A DNA stretch of 38,386 nt, from positions 1-38,386 of the forward strand of contig JAIYAU010000062.1 in the NCBI GenBank assembly GCA_027488865.1, in the 5' to 3' direction. Positions 9,625 through 34,620 of this stretch are shown one piece after another. This DNA comes from Cytophagaceae bacterium. GTDB lineage: Bacteria > Bacteroidota > Bacteroidia > Cytophagales > UBA9547. The position numbers and the translations under genes were made by a program. How positions within the stretch are numbered: the first letter of the stretch is position 1; every line of letters begins with the position of its first letter. The notes below the pieces were generated by a model, which searched no databases, was not told the origin of the DNA, and was given only the letters and a program-made list of their open reading frames with translations.

Positions 9625-11667
9625 TTAATATTTCAAGGTTACTATGATATTATTCTTTGCAAATGCGAAGATGGAATGTAAAGTTTGAAAATAAAGATCT
9701 TTTTTGGATAATATAGCGTACTTGCCTAATTGCCAAACTTCTATTTTAAAATCACCGAAGGGGTCGGTATAAAAATTTTTAACTTCATTGGTAAGTTGGT
9801 TTTTTAAATAAAGTGGGTAATTTGGCATTTTTAAGCCAGTACTATCCACCAAACTGCCTGTTAAAAATTTGGTATCAACTTCTTCCATCTCTATAGTTAT
9901 GTAGGTCATTCCATAGGTTCCTGCTTTTTTATGATGGGGTTCAAATTTGTACAAACCAATCAAAGAATCACGTTCTGCTAAAAAAAGATTGGTAGTGTCG
10001 TCATTAATTTGGCATCTAAATTCACCTTTTGCGTTTGCTAAGAGCGATTCGATAGTGTCGGCATGGAAATCGAGGATTTTAATATTACAATTTGCAAATA
10101 TTTTTTTGCCCTTAGTAACCTTTCCTTTAATGTATGACTTATGAGATTTCTCTAGGAAAACAACCTCTCTTTGAAGCCCTTTAAGTAAATTATCCTCAAA
10201 CTCCACGCGTTCTATTTTGTAGTCTTTTTTAATAAAATCTGCTCTGTATTTTTTATTTGGTTTAGCTTTAAATGAAATAACATGGCCACTGCCGTTGGTT
10301 ACGATGATAGATTTATTGGTTTGCAAATCGGTGATTTTAACACGAATGTTTTTGATGTAGTTGCCTTTTAGCCTGTCTTTTACAGTAAATTCAATGGTAG
10401 ATCCATAAAACTTGACGCCATAAATGTCATCATCTAAGTTACCATTTTTACGGTTACTACAGAAAAATCCCGACTTGCCATCGGGAGCAATGATAAGACC
10501 AAAATCATCTTTCGCACTATTTATTGGGTAGCCAACATTTTCTGGTATGGAATCATTGGATGTAAACCTTAGTATATCAAGCCCGCCCATCCCAGGATGA
10601 CCATTGGAAGAAAAATAAAGTTCATTATCTTCATTTATAAACGGAAACATTTCATTGCCTGAGGTATTAATAGCAGTTAAATTTACGGGTGTCTTCCAAA
10701 TGCCGTTTTCATATTTACTAGTATAAATGTCGGTACCACCTTTGCCACCTGGCATGTCAGAAACAAAATACAAAATACTAGCTTTTTTATTAAAAAAAGG
10801 ATGACTAATGCTATATAAACCCGAGTTAAAAGTAAATTTATTTTTGGTGATCCATTTGTTTGTTAATCGATTTTTTTCAGCGTAAAATAAACCTAAATGT
10901 TGGGTGTTTTTTGGAGCTAAGGTATCTATATTATTTAATGAAAAATAAGCTTTATTGTCGTTTTCATAAAAATAAATTGGCCCTTCGTGCAAATAATGTT
11001 GTAGTACTTTAAATAGGGTAGGATTAGATAGACTGGTGTCTGAGATAAATTTACTATGGTACAAATTTAGAAAGGTGGAGCCATGATGACTGTTTTCATA
11101 TTTGATGGGTGTGTATCTTTTACGTGAAGAAGCAAATACGATACCTCCTTGATAAAATGCCGGAAAAAGTTCAGGCTCGTTGGTGTTAATACTTAGGTTA
11201 AATAATTTATAGGCTGCTGAATCACTGTAAAATAGAGCATAGTCTTTAATGGCATATTTTTTATTTATTACTCTATCTTGGTGTAGGGTATCAGTATATA
11301 AATCGAACCATTTACTTGCTTCCAATAATTTACCATTACTGAGCAATAATTCTGCATAATGCAAATGATGATGCCCAGCTAGTGATGAATCTAGATTGGC
11401 AGTACGATACCACTCTTCAGCCTCTTTGGTATGATTCAGTTGTCTGTAAGCTTCTGCTAGCCTTAACACTGCGTGGTCATGATGTTTTTGTTTATTTAAA
11501 GCTTGTTTATATAATTGGATGGCTTGCTGATAGGCTCTTCTTTCAAAAAATATGTCAGCTCTTTTTATACCACTTTTCATTTGAAAAAATATGTTCTTAT
11601 TTTGCGCATTTGCAAAAGTGCATGCAAAGCACAAAAGAACTAATATTATTTTGTTACGATGATGCAT
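9625..11667 (-). CDS. PorE-like TPR/PD40 protein lacking the OmpA domain
   Basis: The 680-residue protein has a signal peptide (1-21, F-A-N-A-Q). TPR-type helices follow (about 28-130: A-Y-Q-Q-A-I-Q-L-Y-K-Q-A-L, L-R-L-A-E-A-Y-R-Q-L, A-E-E-W-Y). A PD40 beta-propeller region spans about 160-420, with L-Y-F-V-S-D-M-P-G-G, G-G-T-D-I-Y, L-Y-F-S-S-N-G-H-P-G and G-G-L-D-I-L motifs. Two or three carboxypeptidase-regulatory-like beta domains run to the C-terminus. PorE, a T9SS component, has the same order but ends in a peptidoglycan-binding OmpA domain, which is absent here. The ATG overlaps the stop of the PorP-like gene by one base (TAATG), which implies translational coupling. A role in secreting or holding the adhesin encoded upstream is inferred from context. 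Confidence 0.85.
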   Translation of the reverse strand: MHHRNKIILVLLCFACTFANAQNKNIFFQMKSGIKRADIFFERRAYQQAIQLYKQALNKQKHHDHAVLRLAEAYRQLNHTKEAEEWYRTANLDSSLAGHHHLHYAELLLSNGKLLEASKWFDLYTDTLHQDRVINKKYAIKDYALFYSDSAAYKLFNLSINTNEPELFPAFYQGGIVFASSRKRYTPIKYENSHHGSTFLNLYHSKFISDTSLSNPTLFKVLQHYLHEGPIYFYENDNKAYFSLNNIDTLAPKNTQHLGLFYAEKNRLTNKWITKNKFTFNSGLYSISHPFFNKKASILYFVSDMPGGKGGTDIYTSKYENGIWKTPVNLTAINTSGNEMFPFINEDNELYFSSNGHPGMGGLDILRFTSNDSIPENVGYPINSAKDDFGLIIAPDGKSGFFCSNRKNGNLDDDIYGVKFYGSTIEFTVKDRLKGNYIKNIRVKITDLQTNKSIIVTNGSGHVISFKAKPNKKYRADFIKKDYKIERVEFEDNLLKGLQREVVFLEKSHKSYIKGKVTKGKKIFANCNIKILDFHADTIESLLANAKGEFRCQINDDTTNLFLAERDSLIGLYKFEPHHKKAGTYGMTYITIEMEEVDTKFLTGSLVDSTGLKMPNYPLYLKNQLTNEVKNFYTDPFGDFKIEVWQLGKYAILSKKDLYFQTLHSIFAFAKNNIIVTLKY

Positions 11668-12590
11668 TAATAAAAATAACGTGGTGTAACAATCTTGTCT
11701 TTTTCAAACACAAAAAGGTAATGTAGAACCAACTCATGAGAATTGAAAAAAACATTACTCAGTCCCTTTATGCCCCAATCAAATGAATAACCGATTTTTA
11801 ATTGGTTTGTAATGTTCAATTGGGTTAAGAATAAAACGGATTTAGAATTTCTATAAGACACCCCCAACCATAAGGCATCATGCCAAAGTACATTAAGGTT
11901 AATGTCGTAGTTAAGTCCAGAACTTTGGTTATAACCCAAAAGAAAATTGGGTTTTAACTTAAAATCAGGACGAAGATCTATCAGATAACCCCCATTAACA
12001 AAATAATGATTTTGTAGCTGTAGATTGTTTAGAATTTTTTTATTCATTAAGTACCTGCTGGTAATTTGCGGTACTGAGATACCTAAATAGTATGTAGGAC
12101 TGGAAAAATAAATTCCGGTTCCAACTTGTGGCGAAATTGAAACTATTTGGTTATTCTCAAATTTGGGGTCGTTCAGCTGATATTGGGTAAGTGAGGAATA
12201 GTCAACTCTATCGTTATTAATACCCAGTTGCAATGCCAATGACAAATTTTTTTTATTGGAGAATCGTAATCTATAGGCATAAATACCACTCACATGGGTA
12301 TGCTTAAAAACCGAAATCTCGTCTTTGCTAGCCATAAGGCCAAGCGATACTTTTTCACTATTAATTGGGGAATGTGCACCTAAGGTAAATGTTTGAGGAG
12401 CTCCCTCGTATCCAACCCATTGTCTACGGCCAACCATAGAAATACTTAAAGCCTCTAACGAACCGGCAAAAGCAGGATTAATAACCAAACCATTAAACAT
12501 ATACTGCGAATAGTTTGCAGGTTGTTGTCCCAATATTATTTTTGAAGATATTGTGAGTAATATTAGAAAAATAATTCTTTTTGTTATCAT
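11667..12590 (-). CDS. PorP/SprF family type IX secretion membrane protein
   Basis: The 307-residue protein has a signal peptide ending I-L-G-Q (about 22) and the hallmark family start: N-Y-S-Q-Y-M-F-N-G-L-V-I-N-P-A-F-A-G-S, then R-R-Q-W-V-G-Y-E-G-A-P-Q-T-F-T-L. Alternating amphipathic strands through the rest fit a beta-barrel in the outer membrane. In Flavobacterium, SprF is needed for secretion of SprB, the large type B adhesin encoded next to it, and PorP/SprF proteins are generally paired with type B cargo. Here the gene starts directly after the stop of a large type B protein (no intervening base) and is followed by a PorE-like gene, matching that pairing. Confidence 0.93.
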   Translation of the reverse strand: MITKRIIFLILLTISSKIILGQQPANYSQYMFNGLVINPAFAGSLEALSISMVGRRQWVGYEGAPQTFTLGAHSPINSEKVSLGLMASKDEISVFKHTHVSGIYAYRLRFSNKKNLSLALQLGINNDRVDYSSLTQYQLNDPKFENNQIVSISPQVGTGIYFSSPTYYLGISVPQITSRYLMNKKILNNLQLQNHYFVNGGYLIDLRPDFKLKPNFLLGYNQSSGLNYDINLNVLWHDALWLGVSYRNSKSVLFLTQLNITNQLKIGYSFDWGIKGLSNVFFNSHELVLHYLFVFEKDKIVTPRYFY

Positions 12591-15500
12591 CTACCTCTTA
12601 AGCACTACATAGCCCAAAATGGGGCTTTTGTTACCTATTTTTACATTGTAAAAGTACGTTCCTTCCTCTAATTCTCTGTTAGAGCCGTTAGTTTTACCAT
12701 CCCACACCTTATTTATACTATTATAGTTATTTTCTTCGTATATCAATTGTCCCTGTCTGTTAAAAATCAACACCTTGGCAGTAAAATTTTCGTTTAAACC
12801 TTCAATTACCCAAGTGTCATTTATTTGATCTCCATTTGGAGAAAAGGAGTTGAATATTTTTATGTTTTCAATTTTTATAGGCTCTGTAATGTTCTGGCCA
12901 CATGGTCCATTGTCCGTAACAGCTCGTAAATAAGAATTTATTAATAAATAATCAAATTCAAATATAGGTGAGGATTGTAAATACTCAGTTTTATTTACAA
13001 ACAAACTGTCTTTAGATAGTTCAAACTTAATTACCTTACCTGAATAATTGAATAGAGCCACTGTGCCACCATTATCAGAAAAGGTTTCAACTTTTAGTTC
13101 TCCTTTATTTCCAATTTTTTTAACGGTAATTTTTTGCGGAGAAGAGAATACAGAAGGACAAAATTCATTTTTGATTTCCACTTTATAATATTTGTTGTTT
13201 GTCAAATTATTAAAGGTGTAGTTTTCCTTTCCATCAGGTAACGGTTGGTAGTTTATATTATCATCACTTTGCAACCATTGTACAATTCCACCTTCTTTTG
13301 AAACGATTGAAATTGTACCGCTATTTGTATTTTCACAAACCAACGAATCGGTAGCTGTTAATTTACCTACCTTTGATAATGGTTTTATGGAAACTAGAAA
13401 TGCTTTTTTTGTACTTTCACAATGTTTATTTAATGCTGTGGCAAAAAATTGATTGGTGGTTGATAAAAGAGGTGTATTAAATTCAGAGCCAGTCATAATT
13501 AAAGTTTTGGTGGAGTCGTACCAATTATAACTAATTCTTTGTAAGGGTTTTATTACAAACGAAGCTGGTCCACAATTGCTGGTGTCGCTTACCAATGGAA
13601 TGGGTGGAGTAGAAGCAAAATTTACCTTAATGCGAGAAAATTTACTGGTACAATTATTTATTTTATTTTTGATATAAACGTTTGAGTCAGTATTAATAAA
13701 AATAGAATAACTGTTATTTTGAATAAAGCTTGTAGAGCTAGTGTCAGTAAACCATAAGGGTGGCTCCAAAGCATTTTTGGCTAGCAACGTTATGTTGCCT
13801 TCATTACAAATATTGGTATCATAAGCAAGTGGTGCATTCGGTATAGGTATTATATTGATATCAAAGCTTTTTTTATCACTTTGGCAAAACCTATTATATG
13901 CTGCTACTGCATAACGTTCATTTTTATTTAGAATAGGAGTTATATAGTTACTAGAGGTGCTTAATAACTGGTTTGAATCATTGTACCATCTAAGTTGGGT
14001 AGAATTGGATCTTGGCTTTAGTTCAAATGACGCTGACCCACATGAGGATGTATCGTTAATGATAGGGATTAAAGGAGTTGTATCAAAATTTAATTTGATT
14101 TTTGCCAAAGGACTTTCACAATTAGCTTGTTCTTTTGCTAAGTATATCGTAGTGTCTGAATATACCAGAAATTCAAATTTACTAGTATTTTTTTGCAACA
14201 ATTGGGTTTTTGACGAATCAAGATACCAATTACATAATTCGGCGTTTTTATTATTAAGGGTTATGTTGCCTATATCACAACGAATTGTATCATAAGATAT
14301 TGGCCTTAAAGGAATTGGTAAAATGTTCACATTTATCTTCTTTCGATTACTTTCGCAAAAAGGATTTTTGTTGGAAATATAAAAACTAAAGTTACTGTTG
14401 AGGGTAGTGTCTAACAAAGACTTTTTATTAAAGATTTGGTTGCTTAAAGAGTCCAAATACCAAATGCTGGATTCCTGGGGTACATTTGGATTATTATAAT
14501 ATACTCGCCCAGGTCCACATCTGGAGGTGTCTTTAATATTTGGTTGGGTTGGAATAGGATGTATTACTGCTGTAATTTTAGTGGGATTGCTGTAGCACCC
14601 TAATTTAGATCTAGCTTTTACAAAATACTTTGTGGTGGTTTTTAATGAAGGTAGGTAAAAGTTTGTGCCAATATTTATAGACTTTGTATCAATACTATCT
14701 TTGTACCACATAATTGAGTCTATTGAACTGGCAGTTAGGGTTATAGGTCCTTCACCACACCTTGCATTATCTGTTCCTTGAGGTAGATTAGGTATTGGTA
14801 GAATTGATATATTAACTCGCTTACGTGGAAAACCTTCACAACCATTTTTAAACCCAGTAACATAAAAACTTGTATCTTTTGATAAGAAAGAAGTTTTTAA
14901 AACAGAATCTGTTCCTATTACCGAATTGGAAGTGAGCGTATTATACCATTTATATTGACCATTTGAATATCCTTTAGCAATTAAATTTATTGAATCAGCC
15001 CCACAGTTGGAAACGTCATTTGCAATAACTAGTGGATTATTAACAGTAATTTTTGAGGTGTCGGAAAAAGTTATATTGTTGCAATTATCATTAACTACCA
15101 ATCTATAACAAACGTCTCCAACAAGGTCTGATGGCGGCTGATAAAAAACTTTACTATTAGCATTAGGGATATCATTAAAAGCTCCCATGCATCCGTTTTG
15201 GCTTTGCCATTGAAAAGTAAGTCCTTCACATGGCGATTCAATTTCGTTAATGAGTAAGGTTGGTGGGCTATTGATTACATTTTCTTTAGAAGCATAAGTG
15301 TAATTAAAATTTTGGAAATCTGTATTTTTTATTACCAAAGACATCTTTTTTCGTCCTAGAGCCCTAAGTTGGCTCACATGGTTCGTAATATCCCAATGGT
15401 AGATGGTATTTACATATTCATTAATCACTGTTCTTGCGATAAAAGGATTGCGTTCTATCGGCCTATTTGACCATCTTAGTGTACTTTCATTCCAAAGGGT

Positions 15501-16604
15501 ATCGTCAAGTGCGTGTACAAATGCAAACTGGTTAGGATTGATACCTAAGCTATTAAAACCCAATAAATTTAATTTTGCAATACTAATTCCTCCAGTTATA
15601 TTGGAAATATCGAAGTTTAAATAAATCAACTTGTTTTCGCCAGTCCCAAACGATTTTGTTGCTAAATTTTGTGGGTCTATTAATCCGTAAAATCTTGAAG
15701 CATTTGATCCGTCTTGTACGTATGCGTCATGAACAGCCACACTTTTATAGGAATTTACAATGAGTGTATTTGGTGTTTCAAGGGGGCAAATGGTTTGGCT
15801 GCCATTTATTTTGGGCAAAATAATTTTAGGTAATGGATTAGCCAATCCAATATTTAAAATAGCTAATGACTTATTTGACTTATTATCATATTCAAACTCT
15901 AATAGGGAATTCGAATCCAGAGGCCCAGTCCATATTATTCTATTACTCTTATTTCTATTATTTCTTTGGTAAATGGTTTTTCCATTTAACACTAGCTTAC
16001 AGGCGCCTTCATGTCTAGGAATTTGTATTTGATAATTACCATTTACAAAACCTCTTCGTTTTCCTTTTATTAAATGAGAAGGAATGGAAACATTACACCC
16101 TTCATATTTTGTACTAGTAAAAAAAGAGGTCTTTGGACTTGCCAGTGAATCATAAACTAATTCACTGTTGTATTCTAGAGAATTGACCTCAAATTTTCCC
16201 CTATTCATAAGAACAGGGCCAGATTTGTCGTAACAATGAAAAACCCACAAATTGTTACCAATAATGGAGGTGTCACCTACGTAGCTTTTAATTAACCCCA
16301 CTACCTTTTTTCGAGAGCTTTCACAGAACAATGGGGTATTTTTTGAAGATACAAATAGCACAATCGAATCTGTCACAAGTGGAGTATTATAAGTATTTCC
16401 AATAAAAATTGGGGTAGTAGCATTGATGTTATTGTACCAATTTATTTCTATTCCAGGTGCATTAAAGATAAAGTAAGACGGCTCGCAATTGGTTTGATTG
16501 TCAATAATTGGGGTAGGGGGTGGGCATTGGGCATGAAGTCCTAAGGATAAAATACCAAGTATCTTAAATATTAAAAAAATCTTGATAAACCCATGGGTAA
16601 ACAT
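12591..16604 (-). CDS. Large repeat adhesin with T9SS type B sorting domain (SprB-like)
   Basis: The 1337-residue protein has a signal peptide (1-26, L-H-A-Q). It contains an N-terminal Ig-like unit (27-106), an unrecognised beta domain (about 107-270), a DNRLRE/CBM96-like domain (about 285-455, with D-A-Y-V-Q-D and W-N-E-S-T-L-R-W-S-N-R-P), and seven tandem Ig-like repeats of 77-82 residues (523-1076). Another Ig-like unit spans about 1077-1165. The C-terminal gliding-motility-associated domain (CHU_C, type B T9SS signal) covers about 1250-1337, with N-S-F-S-P-N-G-D, V-L-I-F-N-R-Q-G and W-D-G-K-T-N-G. It should be displayed on the cell surface. Motility or adhesion is inferred from the SprB-SprF analogy; many such proteins occur in non-gliding species. 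It is first of three tightly packed genes. Confidence 0.92.
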   Translation of the reverse strand: MFTHGFIKIFLIFKILGILSLGLHAQCPPPTPIIDNQTNCEPSYFIFNAPGIEINWYNNINATTPIFIGNTYNTPLVTDSIVLFVSSKNTPLFCESSRKKVVGLIKSYVGDTSIIGNNLWVFHCYDKSGPVLMNRGKFEVNSLEYNSELVYDSLASPKTSFFTSTKYEGCNVSIPSHLIKGKRRGFVNGNYQIQIPRHEGACKLVLNGKTIYQRNNRNKSNRIIWTGPLDSNSLLEFEYDNKSNKSLAILNIGLANPLPKIILPKINGSQTICPLETPNTLIVNSYKSVAVHDAYVQDGSNASRFYGLIDPQNLATKSFGTGENKLIYLNFDISNITGGISIAKLNLLGFNSLGINPNQFAFVHALDDTLWNESTLRWSNRPIERNPFIARTVINEYVNTIYHWDITNHVSQLRALGRKKMSLVIKNTDFQNFNYTYASKENVINSPPTLLINEIESPCEGLTFQWQSQNGCMGAFNDIPNANSKVFYQPPSDLVGDVCYRLVVNDNCNNITFSDTSKITVNNPLVIANDVSNCGADSINLIAKGYSNGQYKWYNTLTSNSVIGTDSVLKTSFLSKDTSFYVTGFKNGCEGFPRKRVNISILPIPNLPQGTDNARCGEGPITLTASSIDSIMWYKDSIDTKSINIGTNFYLPSLKTTTKYFVKARSKLGCYSNPTKITAVIHPIPTQPNIKDTSRCGPGRVYYNNPNVPQESSIWYLDSLSNQIFNKKSLLDTTLNSNFSFYISNKNPFCESNRKKINVNILPIPLRPISYDTIRCDIGNITLNNKNAELCNWYLDSSKTQLLQKNTSKFEFLVYSDTTIYLAKEQANCESPLAKIKLNFDTTPLIPIINDTSSCGSASFELKPRSNSTQLRWYNDSNQLLSTSSNYITPILNKNERYAVAAYNRFCQSDKKSFDINIIPIPNAPLAYDTNICNEGNITLLAKNALEPPLWFTDTSSTSFIQNNSYSIFINTDSNVYIKNKINNCTSKFSRIKVNFASTPPIPLVSDTSNCGPASFVIKPLQRISYNWYDSTKTLIMTGSEFNTPLLSTTNQFFATALNKHCESTKKAFLVSIKPLSKVGKLTATDSLVCENTNSGTISIVSKEGGIVQWLQSDDNINYQPLPDGKENYTFNNLTNNKYYKVEIKNEFCPSVFSSPQKITVKKIGNKGELKVETFSDNGGTVALFNYSGKVIKFELSKDSLFVNKTEYLQSSPIFEFDYLLINSYLRAVTDNGPCGQNITEPIKIENIKIFNSFSPNGDQINDTWVIEGLNENFTAKVLIFNRQGQLIYEENNYNSINKVWDGKTNGSNRELEEGTYFYNVKIGNKSPILGYVVLKR
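13377..15038 (-). repeat. Seven tandem Ig-like protein repeats (77-82 residues each)
   Basis: Repeats lie at residues 523-604, 605-684, 685-764, 765-842, 843-921, 922-998 and 999-1076 of the adhesin. Each has a D-x-x-x-C-G near the start, a W-Y/W-F strand near residue 30 and a late cysteine before a K-rich strand, so each repeat probably holds one disulfide. Repeats 4, 6 and 8 (counting the N-terminal unit as 1) resemble each other (C-G-x-A/G-x-F), as do 5 and 7 (G-N-I-T-L, K-N-A), giving a two-domain period. Confidence 0.85.
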
Positions 16605-30128: not shown

Positions 30129-32585
30129 TTAAAACCCAAATCTTACTCTTATTTTCTTAAGGGTGTCGGAAACATCAAGTTTGGGTTGAACATTTTCTAG
30201 TTGTTCATCAGAAGTGGTGCACCCATCAATATAGTTTATGATTGATTCAATAGTGTGATCACGTTCAAAAGGCTCCAGATTTGAAAAGAATGCAGACATT
30301 ACACCAGCTGTTTTGTATTGTTCATAAAGTTTTACGGCGTCAGGGTCCTTTTTGGAAATCATGCCTTGAGGATTGCTAACCCACTCTACGATCCATTCCC
30401 TTGAATGTCGTGTAGAGACACCTCGTAGCGCAGGCCCGACCACCTGATGGTTAATGGCATGACATGATTTACAATTGTATTCAAAGAGTGCCTTGCCATC
30501 TATCTCAGATCTACGCATTACACATGGAAAAACATCTTTTTGCAATCGACAAAACACCTCTTGAGCCTGCTTCGCCTTTTTAAATTCTTTTGCTTTTGCT
30601 AAGACTTCGGCTTCTACTTCAAATGAATGAAACAAATTTGTAAGTTTTAAACTTTGACCATTTAATACCTTTTTAATTTCGTCAATACTTGTTTCCTTTA
30701 ATTTTACCTCATATATACCTGGTTTTTGCTTTTTGGTCTGGTTAAAATAACGCTTGCCATTTGATTCTCCAATTACCACCGTTTGGTATTGAATGTCAGC
30801 ATTCATCTGATCCGTATAGTAGGGCTTTTGTTCTTGCATTTTAATAAAACAATTGGCATTGGAAGGTATGAGGTAGGATGAAATCTTTTCGAAATTTTCT
30901 TTATGCTTAACAGTCAATTTTAAGTCATTATAAATGATCTTTGACGTTTTACCCCCTATCTGTATCTTAATATTGGTTTTGGACAGACTTGCATTTATTA
31001 CTACTTCAGATAGTGCACGGTCGATATTATTCCAGCCAAAACTGTACACTCTGGCTGTATAAGTTTGTATGCCTTCTTCTTGGTTTGTGAGCATTACTTG
31101 TATATTAAGGTTGCTATTGACTCCCAGTTGTTTGGCTACATTTTTACGGTTTACTTCAATATCATGAAGGGTTGCTTTTTGAGCGTTTTCTGCAATTATA
31201 TCTCTCGATAGGGTCTTTGAGACATTGAAGTCGTGCAATTGTTTGTTGTAGTTGACCAAGTAAGAGTTACGTGCCTCTTGAATAATCTTTTCGTTCATAA
31301 GCCGACGTTTAGCAAAATAAACTCCTAATTCTGCTGCCAAACCTTTAGATACTTCCAGTTTTCCTTTTTTCAATCTTGCTAGTGATTCAAACTGACGCTT
31401 TAACGGGCCTCTCAATACTTTCGCAGCCATCAAATCAATTTCATAAAGATTCTTGTCCAAATTATTAATATACAAGTTGAGAACGTCGTTGGTAAAGTCA
31501 TAGCTTGCCTCATCGTTACAGGAGTTGTGAAGAAGTTTTAAGCGATATTCAAAATCGTTCGTTGCGAGCAAGGTGTTGTTAAATTTATTATCCCAAATTG
31601 TTTTTATTGTAGCACCTGCAATACCTACAATTTTAAAGTCATTATAAGAATCACCTTCTGAGATAGGTTTCTGGCCCAGTTCTGTTGAAAGAGCATAATA
31701 GATACTATCTGTGTATGTCTTATCTGTTTTGTAAAGACCATGTTGCTTCATAGCAGGGATGAGTCTTGGTGGATAAAAGTCTAATGAAAGAATATCAACA
31801 GGGATTAGTGATTGATCCAATGGTTTAGGATCTACCCAATTTACTCCTCCCTCTTTTGTGATTTCACCTTTATACAATTGCATACCTTCTTTTTCTTCTG
31901 AAGTTGGCACTTTGACAATAATTGGTTTTGTAGAATCCAGTTGCAACTCAACTCCATTTTGGTATGCTGATAAATGAAACATCCCTCCTGTTTCCAAAAT
32001 GTTATTCCCATTTTTAGTCTCCAAACCCGCTAGGACGATTTGAGCGGGTGTTATGGCTTCTCGTAGTCCAATAAAAACTTGTCCATTCACTGGCTTACCT
32101 AGATTATCTAATAAGCAAGACTTAGGTATACCAACAATAATTCCGCTTTCTGATTCGATCACCGCATTAGCTTCTGTGTCAATTTTAAATAATTGAGTCT
32201 TGATTGAAATGGAATCTTTAGTAACTATCTCCTGATAAACTACTTCTGGTTCTGTTCCATTCTGCTCATTTTTTTGACCGATTGTACTAGGAACCAAGTA
32301 GATATGAATCGCCCAATAGATACTAGCTATTGCAACCAGTCCAGCCAAAGCAATCCCTACATACTTCAGTGTTATCAAGTTTTTGTAGTATTGCTTCGCT
32401 TTTTTAATGTGTACTTTGAAGGCGATTCTGTTAAGACCCATCAATAAGTCTTGCATTTGGTTTAATTGTGATTTTAGATTCCCATCTTTTTCTAATTCTT
32501 CCTCAAAGGTCGATCTTTCATCTTCTGACATGTTTTTCATCAAATATCGCTCGATCCTTTCCAACATTGCTTGATTATCATGCAT
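30129..32585 (-). CDS. Anti-sigma-like membrane protein fused to a cytochrome c domain
   Basis: The 818-residue protein starts with a cytoplasmic helical segment (1-70) of the type found in anti-sigma factors (I-E-R-Y-L-M-K-N-M-S-E-D-E-R-S-T-F-E). One membrane helix (about 75-97) follows. A periplasmic beta domain spans about 120-270 (G-I-P-K-S-C-L-L-D-N-L-G-K-P-V-N-G-Q-V-F). Then comes a long, largely helical region of unknown fold (about 290-680), and a mono-heme cytochrome c domain (about 690-795). The latter has C-K-S-C-H at 705-709, V-V-G-P-A-L after it and Met763 (G-V-M-S-A-F) as likely sixth ligand. It follows the ECF sigma gene after 12 nt. The simplest reading is that it holds the sigma factor and that heme redox state or electron flow affects release; this is inference. 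No homologous named family is known to me. Confidence 0.8.
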   Translation of the reverse strand: MHDNQAMLERIERYLMKNMSEDERSTFEEELEKDGNLKSQLNQMQDLLMGLNRIAFKVHIKKAKQYYKNLITLKYVGIALAGLVAIASIYWAIHIYLVPSTIGQKNEQNGTEPEVVYQEIVTKDSISIKTQLFKIDTEANAVIESESGIIVGIPKSCLLDNLGKPVNGQVFIGLREAITPAQIVLAGLETKNGNNILETGGMFHLSAYQNGVELQLDSTKPIIVKVPTSEEKEGMQLYKGEITKEGGVNWVDPKPLDQSLIPVDILSLDFYPPRLIPAMKQHGLYKTDKTYTDSIYYALSTELGQKPISEGDSYNDFKIVGIAGATIKTIWDNKFNNTLLATNDFEYRLKLLHNSCNDEASYDFTNDVLNLYINNLDKNLYEIDLMAAKVLRGPLKRQFESLARLKKGKLEVSKGLAAELGVYFAKRRLMNEKIIQEARNSYLVNYNKQLHDFNVSKTLSRDIIAENAQKATLHDIEVNRKNVAKQLGVNSNLNIQVMLTNQEEGIQTYTARVYSFGWNNIDRALSEVVINASLSKTNIKIQIGGKTSKIIYNDLKLTVKHKENFEKISSYLIPSNANCFIKMQEQKPYYTDQMNADIQYQTVVIGESNGKRYFNQTKKQKPGIYEVKLKETSIDEIKKVLNGQSLKLTNLFHSFEVEAEVLAKAKEFKKAKQAQEVFCRLQKDVFPCVMRRSEIDGKALFEYNCKSCHAINHQVVGPALRGVSTRHSREWIVEWVSNPQGMISKKDPDAVKLYEQYKTAGVMSAFFSNLEPFERDHTIESIINYIDGCTTSDEQLENVQPKLDVSDTLKKIRVRFGF

Positions 32586-32597
32586 GGTCTTGGTATT

Positions 32598-33128
32598 CTA
32601 GTTAGTTGAAATAGTAAGTTTTAAGTAGTTTTGGCGGGCTTTTTCCAAACAGCGGTATTTTTGGTTTTTTGCCACTTCTTCTGTCTTAAGCTGCATTTTT
32701 GATGCAATCTCCTGCATGCTTAGGTGTAATACATAAAAGCTTTTTAAGATTTCTAAACAGCGTTCACCGACATTGGATAATGCCTGTTCTGCCAAATGGT
32801 AGCGTTTCTCATCTGAGGTATCTCCTAAGTCAACAAGTTCATAATCAAAGTTTACGTATCTGTTGAGCTTAATGAGTTCAGCTTTCCATTTGTATTTACA
32901 AATGCTAAATAAGTAAGTATCCAGCGAGGCAGTAAGTATAAAGTCAGGCTGATTCGTCTTTTCAAGTAATACCAACAAGCTCTCTTGAAAAATATCATTT
33001 GCTTGTTCTGAAGTACCGCCATTTCGCTTCACAAACTGGCGCACCTTAGGGAAATAACGATAGAGTTGTGCAAGCCCTTGTTGTACCTTTCCTGTTTTGA
33101 GGCGATTGATTAAATCTTCGTCTTTCAT
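32598..33128 (-). CDS. ECF-type RNA polymerase sigma factor
   Basis: The 176-residue protein matches the ECF sigma-70 family in form. Region 2 (about 20-90) has Y-F-P-K-V-R-Q-F-V, A-N-D-I-F-Q-E-S-L-L-V-L-L-E-K and T-Y-L-F-S-I-C-K-Y-K-W. Region 4 (about 115-170) has L-S-M-Q-E-I-A-S-K-M-Q-L-K-T-E-E-V-A-K-N-Q-K-Y-R-C with the recognition helix. There is no region 3. It is transcribed with the membrane anti-sigma-like gene (12-nt gap) and divergently from the PhoD-like gene (175 nt between starts), a likely place for a target promoter. I could not identify an ECF promoter by eye. Confidence 0.92.
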   Translation of the reverse strand: MKDEDLINRLKTGKVQQGLAQLYRYFPKVRQFVKRNGGTSEQANDIFQESLLVLLEKTNQPDFILTASLDTYLFSICKYKWKAELIKLNRYVNFDYELVDLGDTSDEKRYHLAEQALSNVGERCLEILKSFYVLHLSMQEIASKMQLKTEEVAKNQKYRCLEKARQNYLKLTISTN

Positions 33129-33303
33129 TCTATAAAAGTTTTTTCACTTCCTTAATGTAATAATTGCACCAAGGTCATCACTAGTTTTGAAATTTTTTTA
33201 ATCGAACTCCTAAGAAAGATTTTTATTAATCCCCAAATCTTAACAATTCATTAATATTATCCTCAAAAATAAAGACTACTTTTATTTTTTATTATTTTAA
33301 AAC

Positions 33304-34620
33304 ATGAAAAACTTATTATTTTTAATCCTCATTTCTTTCAATTTTGTATTCGCACAATCCAGTCTGTTGCAATCGGGACCAATGGTGGGGTATGCCGAAA
33401 TGAAAGAGGTTTGTCTTTGGGTTCAAACGAAGGAGGCTGCTGATGTCAAAATTATTTATTTTGATAAGTCCAATCCAACAAAAAAGATGGAAACAGAAAC
33501 AATTAAAACTGATAAAAAGTATGCTTTTGCTACCAAGCTTATCGCCGATAAAGTAGAGCCCGGTACCAAATATTCTTATGAATTATATATCAACAATAAA
33601 AAGGTTGTGCGACCTTATCCTTTAGAATTTCAAACACTTAAACTTTGGTTGTTTAGAACTGATGCACCAGATTTTAAACTAGCCTTGGGAAGCTGTTCAT
33701 ATATTAATCAAACAGAGTATGATCGTCCTGGCAAAGGATATGGTGCTGATTATAAAATATTTACAAGTATATATGAAAAAAAACCCGACGCCATGTTTTG
33801 GTTAGGGGACAATGTATACTTACGAGAATCAGACTGGAATTCTCGGACAGGCGTTTTTGCGCGGTATACTCACACTCGTTCGACGCCTGAAATGCAATCA
33901 TTATTTGGAAGCGTACACAACTATGCTATTTGGGATGACCATGATTATGGACCTAACGACTCTGACCGTAGCTTTTGGAATAAAAATACAACCCTTGATG
34001 CTTTCAAAACTTTTTGGTGCAATCCAAGCTTTGGAGTTCACAATCTTGGTGGCATTACCTCACAATTTGAATGGGGTGATGCTCAGTTTTTTATCCTTGA
34101 TAACCGATGGTTTAGAAGCCCTCAAAAAAGAACCGGAATTGATAGCACCATGTTGGGCAAGGAGCAACTTAACTGGCTAATCGACGCATTAACCTCAAGT
34201 AAAGCTACTTTTAAATTTATTGCCATAGGTGGACAAACCTTAAATCCGTTAAAGAAATATGAAAACTTTAGCAATTATGAAAAAGAAAGAAAACAATTAC
34301 TTGATGCGATTGAATTGAACAATATTAAAGGTGTAATTTTTCTATCTGGAGATAGGCATCATACCGAACTTTCAAAATTGGAACGACCAAATAATTATCC
34401 TATCTATGATTTAACAGTGTCAGCATTAACTGCTGGAGGACCGGAAGAACTCAAAGAAGAAAATGCGCTTCGTGTGTCAGGAACGGGCACAGTTGGGCAA
34501 AATTTCGCCACCTTAGACTTTGTTGGACCAAAGGCAACCCGCACTATTAAAATAACTGTTTTTGACAAAGACGGTAAACAACTTTGGACAAAGGATATTT
34601 TAGCTTCTGAGTTGAAATAG
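33304..34620 (+). CDS. PhoD-like alkaline phosphatase / phosphodiesterase
   Basis: The 438-residue exported protein (signal ending F-A-Q, about 18) has an N-terminal fibronectin-like PhoD domain (19-120; V-C-L-W-V-Q-T-K, G-T-K-Y-S-Y-E-L). The PhoD metallophosphatase core has A-L-G-S-C-S-Y (metal Cys region), F-W-L-G-D-N-V-Y, I-W-D-D-H-D-Y-G-P-N-D, L-D-N-R-W-F and L-S-G-D-R-H-H-T-E-L. All metal-binding motifs of the family are present. It hydrolyses phosphate monoesters or diesters outside the inner membrane; the natural substrate is unknown. No sorting domain of T9SS or Tat signal is seen, in contrast to Bacillus PhoD, so a Sec route is likely. It is divergent from the sigma factor gene. Confidence 0.93.
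   Translation: MKNLLFLILISFNFVFAQSSLLQSGPMVGYAEMKEVCLWVQTKEAADVKIIYFDKSNPTKKMETETIKTDKKYAFATKLIADKVEPGTKYSYELYINNKKVVRPYPLEFQTLKLWLFRTDAPDFKLALGSCSYINQTEYDRPGKGYGADYKIFTSIYEKKPDAMFWLGDNVYLRESDWNSRTGVFARYTHTRSTPEMQSLFGSVHNYAIWDDHDYGPNDSDRSFWNKNTTLDAFKTFWCNPSFGVHNLGGITSQFEWGDAQFFILDNRWFRSPQKRTGIDSTMLGKEQLNWLIDALTSSKATFKFIAIGGQTLNPLKKYENFSNYEKERKQLLDAIELNNIKGVIFLSGDRHHTELSKLERPNNYPIYDLTVSALTAGGPEELKEENALRVSGTGTVGQNFATLDFVGPKATRTIKITVFDKDGKQLWTKDILASELK

Follow-up and report, generated by a model that had tools for sequence, protein, structure and literature searches.

Membrane-anchored anti-sigma factors such as RseA, MucA, RsiW and CnrY are encoded adjacent to their sigma factor and consist of N-terminal cytoplasmic helices, one membrane helix and a periplasmic domain; to our knowledge, none of them carries a covalent heme domain. 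The same layout is seen in a putative anti-sigma factor of 818 residues, which is encoded next to an extracytoplasmic function (ECF)-type sigma factor in a 38,386-nucleotide stretch of a Cytophagaceae bacterium (GCA_027488865.1, contig JAIYAU010000062.1; the whole stretch is referred to as the window, and its positions are used throughout), and the periplasmic part of which ends in a c-type cytochrome. The sigma/anti-sigma pair is of a known kind, while the cytochrome, as a putative sensor head, appears to be new. The best explanation for the locus appears to be a heme-reading sigma/anti-sigma switch of a modular Bacteroidota type, to which we assign a probability of roughly one half.

Redox control at the level of an anti-sigma factor has been described for RslA, where the redox state sets how tightly the sigma is held, by means of zinc and a CXXC motif in the cytosolic anti-sigma domain (PMC2877774). 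Compared with this account of RslA, the window protein has no cysteine in residues 1–60, and its sensing would be periplasmic and based on heme. Covalent heme c in the sensor domain of a signalling protein is found in the receptors GSU0582 and GSU0935, the domains of which differ from that of the window in fold and output, and sigma factors are not mentioned in the available portion of that text (PMC12889525). The Dma family is similar in that it is a Bacteroidota anti-sigma with an unusual envelope-side part and an ECF sigma partner; however, Dma is defined by a C-terminal beta-barrel after a disordered tether, which neither Pfam nor the structural model finds in the window protein, where a ZU5-like module and a helical C-terminal cytochrome are predicted instead. 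No anti-sigma factor with a cytochrome domain was found in the listed titles and opening lines of abstracts of open PubMed Central papers (subscription papers and sigma classification databases lie outside this scope), and the words cytochrome and heme do not occur in the main texts of two ECF reviews, as far as these were available. This agrees with an earlier note, made from the letters of the window alone, which knew of no described anti-sigma of this architecture.

The sigma factor and its membrane partner

The sigma gene (32598–33128, 176 residues) and the gene of the putative anti-sigma factor with periplasmic cytochrome c (30129–32585, 818 residues) are called as open reading frames (ORFs) on the minus strand, as are all features of the pair given below, and the 12 nt between them are as the earlier note had read them. 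That note had proposed profile searches for sigma-factor, anti-sigma and cytochrome c domains, the outcome of which is divided: the sigma passes the TIGR02937 sigma70-ECF superfamily model (43.4 bits, cut-off 42.9) and the partner passes Pfam Cytochrom_C, whereas the sigma stays below the Pfam cut-offs (Sigma70_r2, 20.1 of 24 bits; Sigma70_r4_2, 12.3 of 25.7 bits) and the partner below those of every named anti-sigma family in Pfam and NCBIfam. Because the scores for regions 2 and 4 are under the cut-offs, the sigma is classed, from its sequence, as a divergent ECF sigma. The sigmas of three related loci (L193, L194 and L196) pass Pfam region 2 with 27.7, 32.1 and 33.8 bits, respectively, and miss region 4. 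In its predicted structure the window sigma carries both the sigma2 and the sigma4 fold according to VIA, a second look that re-aligns Foldseek candidates alone and in which unrelated models often score Z 7–8: region 2 resembles sigmaE 4lup (Z 10.2, 3.3 Å, 89 residues) and region 4 resembles sigL 3hug (Z 8.4, 2.0 Å, 70 residues).

The partner has a helical N-terminus (cytoplasmic anti-sigma-like helices, residues 1–60, 32406–32585) before one membrane helix (residues 71–89, 32319–32375, hydropathy 1.97), as indicated by a hydropathy script and the models. The sequence ahead of the membrane helix contains basic residues (KKAKQYYKNLITLK), which would put the N-terminus on the cytoplasmic side. 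The earlier note had likewise described a single membrane helix, an extensive periplasmic part and, at the C-terminus, a c-type heme domain, and hydropathy, Pfam and the model agree with it. With anti-sigma family models the N-terminus scores far under the cut-offs (11.9 of 100 bits for NF052375). The zinc-associated anti-sigma domain zf-HC2 gives no match in the window protein, where HxxxCxxC is precluded by the lack of cysteine in residues 1–60, and is weak in the relative L193 (16.5 of 22.2 bits, below cut-off). A sequence profile of the N-terminus retrieved no solved anti-sigma from the PDB, only three weak and unrelated matches.

Since the window protein itself reaches no named family cut-off, the label of anti-sigma factor comes from its relatives and from a model. 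At 59 of 65 distinct loci with a window-type sigma (phmmer E 1e-15 or better; 67 rows minus the refetched records L180 and L182), the ORF adjoining the sigma gene in the same direction encodes the same N-terminal domain, and at 44 of 50 when the 15 seed loci of the profile are set aside; the sample is non-random, many loci having been chosen for the best-matching sigma or periplasmic part. Six of the 65 are unpaired, as four have no partner ORF of at least 150 residues (L165 lies at a contig end) and two have partners that are unmatched (L149, L166). Two relatives of this N-terminus have matches, both below cut-off, to named models, L135 to the NCBIfam anti-sigma NF052375 (E 4.4e-7) and L132 to RseA (E 0.0014). 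Comparison of these sequences thus supports sigma/anti-sigma pairing as a family trait.

The sigma and partner genes are in frame, and reading the single intervening TAG as a residue gives one read-through chain, comprising the sigma, a five-residue artificial link and the first 95 residues of the partner. The underlying alignment has 21 rows, of which 14 are sigma/partner pairs, and AlphaFold2 models this chain with a predicted local distance difference test (pLDDT) of 92.0 and a predicted template modelling score (pTM) of 0.84. Its best structural matches in VIA are sigma factors, including chains from the sigmaE/RseA, AlgU/MucA, SigW/RsiW and CnrH/CnrY complexes, and matches that cover both sigma domains have a root-mean-square deviation of 8.5 Å or more, so that the domain arrangement differs from that of those complexes. 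In Foldseek itself, neither this nor the full-length model has a match with an E value of 0.001 or lower. The model supports the predicted binding of the sigma by the N-terminus, short of proof because the artificial link is short and neither a decoy nor an interface error estimate accompanies it. The structure prediction that the earlier note had suggested for the sigma with the partner's N-terminus is therefore confident, and its sigma/anti-sigma pairing is borne out by this model together with the 59 paired loci.

The cytochrome domain and the periplasmic body

The c-type cytochrome domain is assigned to residues 689–793 (30207–30521), with the heme attachment motif CKSCH at residues 705–709 (30459–30473) and Met763 (30297–30299) as candidate axial heme ligand. 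Pfam Cytochrom_C (PF00034) matches residues 696–743 with 28.8 bits, above the cut-off of 21.3, and the match is not considered to be chance, because residues 689–793 of the model align structurally with cytochrome c of Rhodothermus marinus (3cp5; Z 9.9, 2.0 Å, 91 residues). The closest solved relative by sequence is the mono-heme cytochrome domain of Alternative Complex III subunit A (ActA; 6btm_A, E 1.8e-17), and Met763, within VMSAF, aligns with the Met of VMTSF in ActA. By sequence and predicted fold, the 818-residue protein bears a genuine c-type cytochrome domain, predicted to be of class I, and the earlier reading of C-K-S-C-H as a heme site and of Met763 as a possible ligand is in line with this.

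The window cytochrome has its highest pairwise identity to the ActA of its own genome (46% over 105 columns, 54% by BLAST), which suggests that the two domains may have the same electron partners. This ActA-like protein has six CxxCH motifs and is regarded as a subunit of a respiratory complex rather than as a regulator. The genome further encodes two M50 membrane proteases and, on contig C7, cytochrome c assembly genes (Cytochrom_C_asm, 103.5 bits) in frames of 851 and 222 residues, which from their sizes we take to be CcmF and CcmC; ResB was not found in the genome. At a related locus, an ActA-like gene with six CxxCH motifs (L180:1628–2956) lies 2.4 kb upstream of the sigma gene, the anti-sigma of which has no cytochrome; such a neighbour was seen at one of 19 sigma-linked loci within the flanks examined and may be due to chance.

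Between the membrane helix and the cytochrome, the model shows a ZU5/GAIN-like beta domain (residues 127–255, 31821–32207), the last strand of which is contributed by about residues 507–525 (31011–31067). A mostly helical insert, modelled partly with low confidence, sits within this domain (residues 256–506, 31068–31820), and a second beta-sandwich follows (residues 533–633, 30687–30989), which many beta-sandwich structures resemble in VIA and which is UPA-like by position only. Residues 127–255 together with the strand at about 507–525 share the fold of ankyrin, CD97 and BAI3 with Z 9.3–9.4, where unrelated models often reach Z 7–8 (ankyrin ZU5 4d8o, Z 9.4, 3.7 Å, 129 residues; CD97 GAIN 9mqr, Z 9.4, 3.5 Å, 139 residues; 4dlo, Z 9.3, 3.9 Å, 140 residues). 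On these models the ZU5/GAIN reading is likely, although Pfam ZU5 has no match in the window protein. Self-cleaving relatives have Ser or Thr near the position at which the window protein has the near-invariant Gly-Trp 517–518, close to the last strand of the domain, and by this analogy self-cleavage of the window protein is unlikely.

Directly before the cytochrome stands FPC (residues 686–688, 30522–30530), a case of the conserved motif [FY]PC, with P687 and C688 invariant across the four rows of alignment A6. The proteins of L093, L094 and L151 end shortly past this motif, and no remnant of a cytochrome was found in the three forward frames over about 700 bases downstream. Within the order, a periplasmic profile devoid of the cytochrome matched 114 of 390 genomes (E 1e-10), and within the phylum 6 of 395 (E 1e-25), mostly in the first domain only.

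Exchangeable heads among the relatives

A search with a four-row alignment of the sigma-linked clade, by means of two short patterns, yielded 26 loci, so that counts drawn from this search are not frequencies. CxxCH is found at 5 of 24 sigma-linked loci with a ZU5-like periplasmic part, at the C-terminus in the window and mid-protein in L191, L193, L194 and L196, the middle position being backed by Pfam in the last three. Early in the region equivalent to residues 256–506, either a cytochrome (L191, L193, L194 and L196) or a prolyl isomerase (L190) is inserted, the latter being of PPIC type (L190:5989–8433; PF13616, 48.0 bits, cut-off 22.5), while L189 and L192 have other inserts in this middle slot, with no Pfam match above cut-off. 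In L132 (2581–3777) and L135 (2746–3852), the partner directly after the sigma has a trypsin-like (HtrA/DegS-like) protease head. The genome of the window also holds a paralogous sigma, 42% identical, the partner of which contains a VHL beta domain (L084:3060–4879, G000 contig C36) and which has the same promoter-like element upstream. Membrane partners with a mid-protein cytochrome are moreover linked to a second sigma type, with 23% BLASTP identity to that of the window, in two genomes of one genus (L038:6028–7902, L103:2464–4323), and in searches with these proteins they themselves were the sole matches among the 390 order genomes. Both have a Cys-rich CxCxC stretch close to the C-terminus. 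By these domain assignments, the heme is one of several exchangeable heads.

Relatives outside sigma operons, mostly with lipoprotein-like signals, stand alone and bear a C-terminal cytochrome like that of the window. Four of them (L035, L036, L037 and L039) were rejected as evidence that the finding is conserved, as they start with a lipoprotein-like signal in place of the anti-sigma N-terminus; no sigma match was found in the 13–16 kb around each. The relative with the C-terminal cytochrome in L036 (421–9655, G044) shares a cluster with MbnP (PF20243) and with a di-heme CCP_MauG protein, neighbours that suggest a link to copper; by eye, the ORFs around L037 are arranged alike. The full-length window protein had no relative in the genome contigs searched (14 pattern hits, none confirmed), and a search of plasmids gave six records in which, among the matches listed, only the cytochrome part was matched.

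When 29 chosen periplasmic parts are placed in a tree, one branch (support 100/99) splits 18 sigma-linked proteins from 11 without a sigma neighbour, the latter mostly with lipoprotein-like signals, and the presence of the cytochrome requires six changes. The four middle-insert proteins form a clade (98/98) that excludes the window protein, which groups with L188 in this tree with modest support (91/86) and with L093, L094 and L151 in an earlier tree of 31 proteins (100/98), so that we are unsure of its exact place. That the five cytochromes linked to window-type sigmas arose only once is not supported by the best tree, nor is it rejected (approximately unbiased test, p 0.09). In a tree of 41 cytochrome domains, the four middle inserts fall together (100/98) and are joined by the ActA-like domain of another genome (97/92), a group that excludes the domains of the window, L038 and L103, while L038 and L103 pair with each other (99/86). 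The different positions and sigma types of the cytochromes point to repeated recruitment, and the sequences support at least two such events, with three as the best reading; alternatively, the C-terminal form may go back to ancestral presence followed by loss, since the stand-alone relatives have a cytochrome at the same end as the window protein. Descent from the genome's own ActA was considered as well, but both cytochrome trees leave it undecided despite the best pairwise identity.

A promoter-like element shared with related sigmas

The element TGACCTT-N13-CATTAA (33152–33177) lies 23 bp ahead of the start codon of the sigma gene. Upstream of 23 sigma genes of the clade and its near relatives, a set that includes close relatives such as L093 and L182 of one genus, TGACCTT is found, followed after some 13 nt by CATT, in varying forms. 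Of the 23 upstream regions, 13 contain ACCT-N14-CATT, against 6 for the commonest such dyad in 15 shuffled sets. The strict element precedes none of 39 other sigma loci, among which L151 is a clade member with a variant copy and several have, by eye, GGTTACC and GTAT instead.

Two of the eight exact sites in the genome lie within 150 bp upstream of an ORF, namely before the window sigma and before its paralogue on contig C36. When 13 sites were traced (the eight exact and five with one mismatch), three were within 150 bp upstream of an ORF of at least 80 residues, the third preceding an ORF of 488 residues (L219, one mismatch). The element is a putative promoter of the sigma's own gene, which fits autoregulation, possibly shared with the paralogue. 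A scan of the region for sigma-70 type promoters and terminators found no more than in shuffled sequences.

Proposed mechanism and alternative explanations

In the heme-reading switch, the N-terminal helices of the 818-residue protein would hold the ECF sigma at the inner membrane, while the periplasmic ZU5-like module would serve as the common input body and the C-terminal c-type cytochrome as the sensor in the lineage of the window. The heme is proposed to read the periplasmic end of the respiratory chain because the domain is most like the genome's own ActA mono-heme domain by pairwise identity. A change in heme oxidation, or a failure of heme loading, would alter the ZU5-like module and expose the protein to stepwise proteolysis, which would free the sigma for transcription of at least its own operon from TGACCTT-N13-CATTAA. 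Sequence and models show the architecture, the pairing, the cytochrome fold and the promoter-like element, whereas binding of the sigma, loading of heme, proteolytic release and redox as the signal are what we infer here; control of the sigma by the heme is plausible. If the heme does set sigma activity, Bacteroidota would have a redox switch that couples electron transfer in the periplasm directly to transcription, and the periplasmic half of the anti-sigma would be a socket for sensors as varied as a protease, a prolyl isomerase, a VHL-like domain and a cytochrome. The broader idea is that of a family with exchangeable heads and independently recruited c-type cytochromes, in the window one that resembles the mono-heme domain of Alternative Complex III; electrons that leave the respiratory chain in the periplasm would then set transcription across the membrane, and neither a kinase nor a diffusible signal nor a redox sensor in the cytoplasm would be needed. 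We consider this less likely than not.

Several observations weigh against a heme-reading switch. The earlier note had held that homologs devoid of the cytochrome end, or with C-x-x-C-H not conserved, would speak against its proposal, and the survey of homologs found gene pairing conserved and the motif largely absent: CxxCH is missing from 19 of the 24 sigma-linked relatives that share the periplasmic part, meaning that most relatives do without heme (L095 and L195 are split ORFs, counted by their listed pieces, and L191, among the five with the motif, runs off its contig). This is partly offset, since L191, L193, L194 and L196 as well as L038 and L103 have a cytochrome c at another position. 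In L095 (3122–5233, G153), the two ORFs are probably a broken gene or an assembly error. CxxCH is also absent from all 37 partners with other heads and from every other window ORF of at least 80 residues, the genomes searched included none of the window's genus, and the full-length model, which is free of heme, is moderate (pLDDT 72.8, pTM 0.48). Genome-wide, the promoter-like element is not in excess (8 exact matches against 20 for a reversed control; 100 against 96 with up to two mismatches), and for this reason no redox regulon is named. The placement of the window's own cytochrome is unsettled in both cytochrome trees. The 29-protein tree omits 6 of the 24 sigma-linked loci (L086, L087, L095, L195, L197 and L198), and in the earlier 31-protein tree L087, which has a window-type sigma and a long branch, falls outside the window's group, as do L107, L038 and L103 with the other sigma type; sigma linkage therefore need not have a single origin.

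In an alternative view of the switch, the periplasmic part was inherited together with a cytochrome that acts as a passenger or a structural cap, the ZU5-like module reads an envelope or secretion cue, and heme takes no part in sensing. The 19 cytochrome-free relatives, the proteins of L093, L094 and L151 that stop shortly after [FY]PC, and the stand-alone relatives, in which the same C-terminal cytochrome may be an old companion of the fold, all favour it. However, the CxxCH and Met pattern is kept in all cases found, with M-x-[AV]-F after CxxCH in 7 of 7 sigma-linked cytochrome domains, and a passenger does not easily explain cytochromes at different positions in groups that are separate in the cytochrome tree; we regard this view as rather unlikely. 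The natural relatives with and without a cytochrome permit head-swap tests.

The same architecture would also suit a heme-loading checkpoint, in which the apo-domain left by failed cytochrome c assembly releases the sigma and the redox state of the loaded heme is irrelevant. A covalently loaded anti-sigma domain could act as a direct gauge of maturation, and the genome carries genes for cytochrome c assembly; yet these lie on another contig (C7), and the only two exact elements within 150 bp upstream of an ORF both precede sigma genes, which makes a checkpoint distinctly less probable. Sensing of a gas or small ligand, with nitric oxide, carbon monoxide or oxygen binding the heme once Met763 is displaced, has a precedent in the NO-binding c-type heme sensor domain of bacterial receptors (PMC12889525), but is very improbable, as the window domain is similar to respiratory cytochromes c and shares their conserved Met and the analyses run found no link to that receptor domain. 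That the 818-residue protein is no anti-sigma at all, but a membrane cytochrome merely sharing an operon with the sigma, would accord with the missed family cut-offs and the absence of a PDB anti-sigma among the N-terminal profile matches, and is nonetheless hardly credible given the high-confidence pair model and an N-terminus kept beside 59 of 65 sigmas while the heads change between protease, VHL-like and ZU5-like.

Neighbouring genes

Divergent from the sigma gene, a PhoD-like phosphatase is encoded at 33304–34620, and the two genes have a common upstream region of 175 bp. Further away, 9625–16604 encodes a TPR/PD40 protein and a protein of 1337 residues with immunoglobulin-like repeats, CBM96 and a CHU_C type IX secretion signal, both of which are probably related to gliding or type IX secretion.

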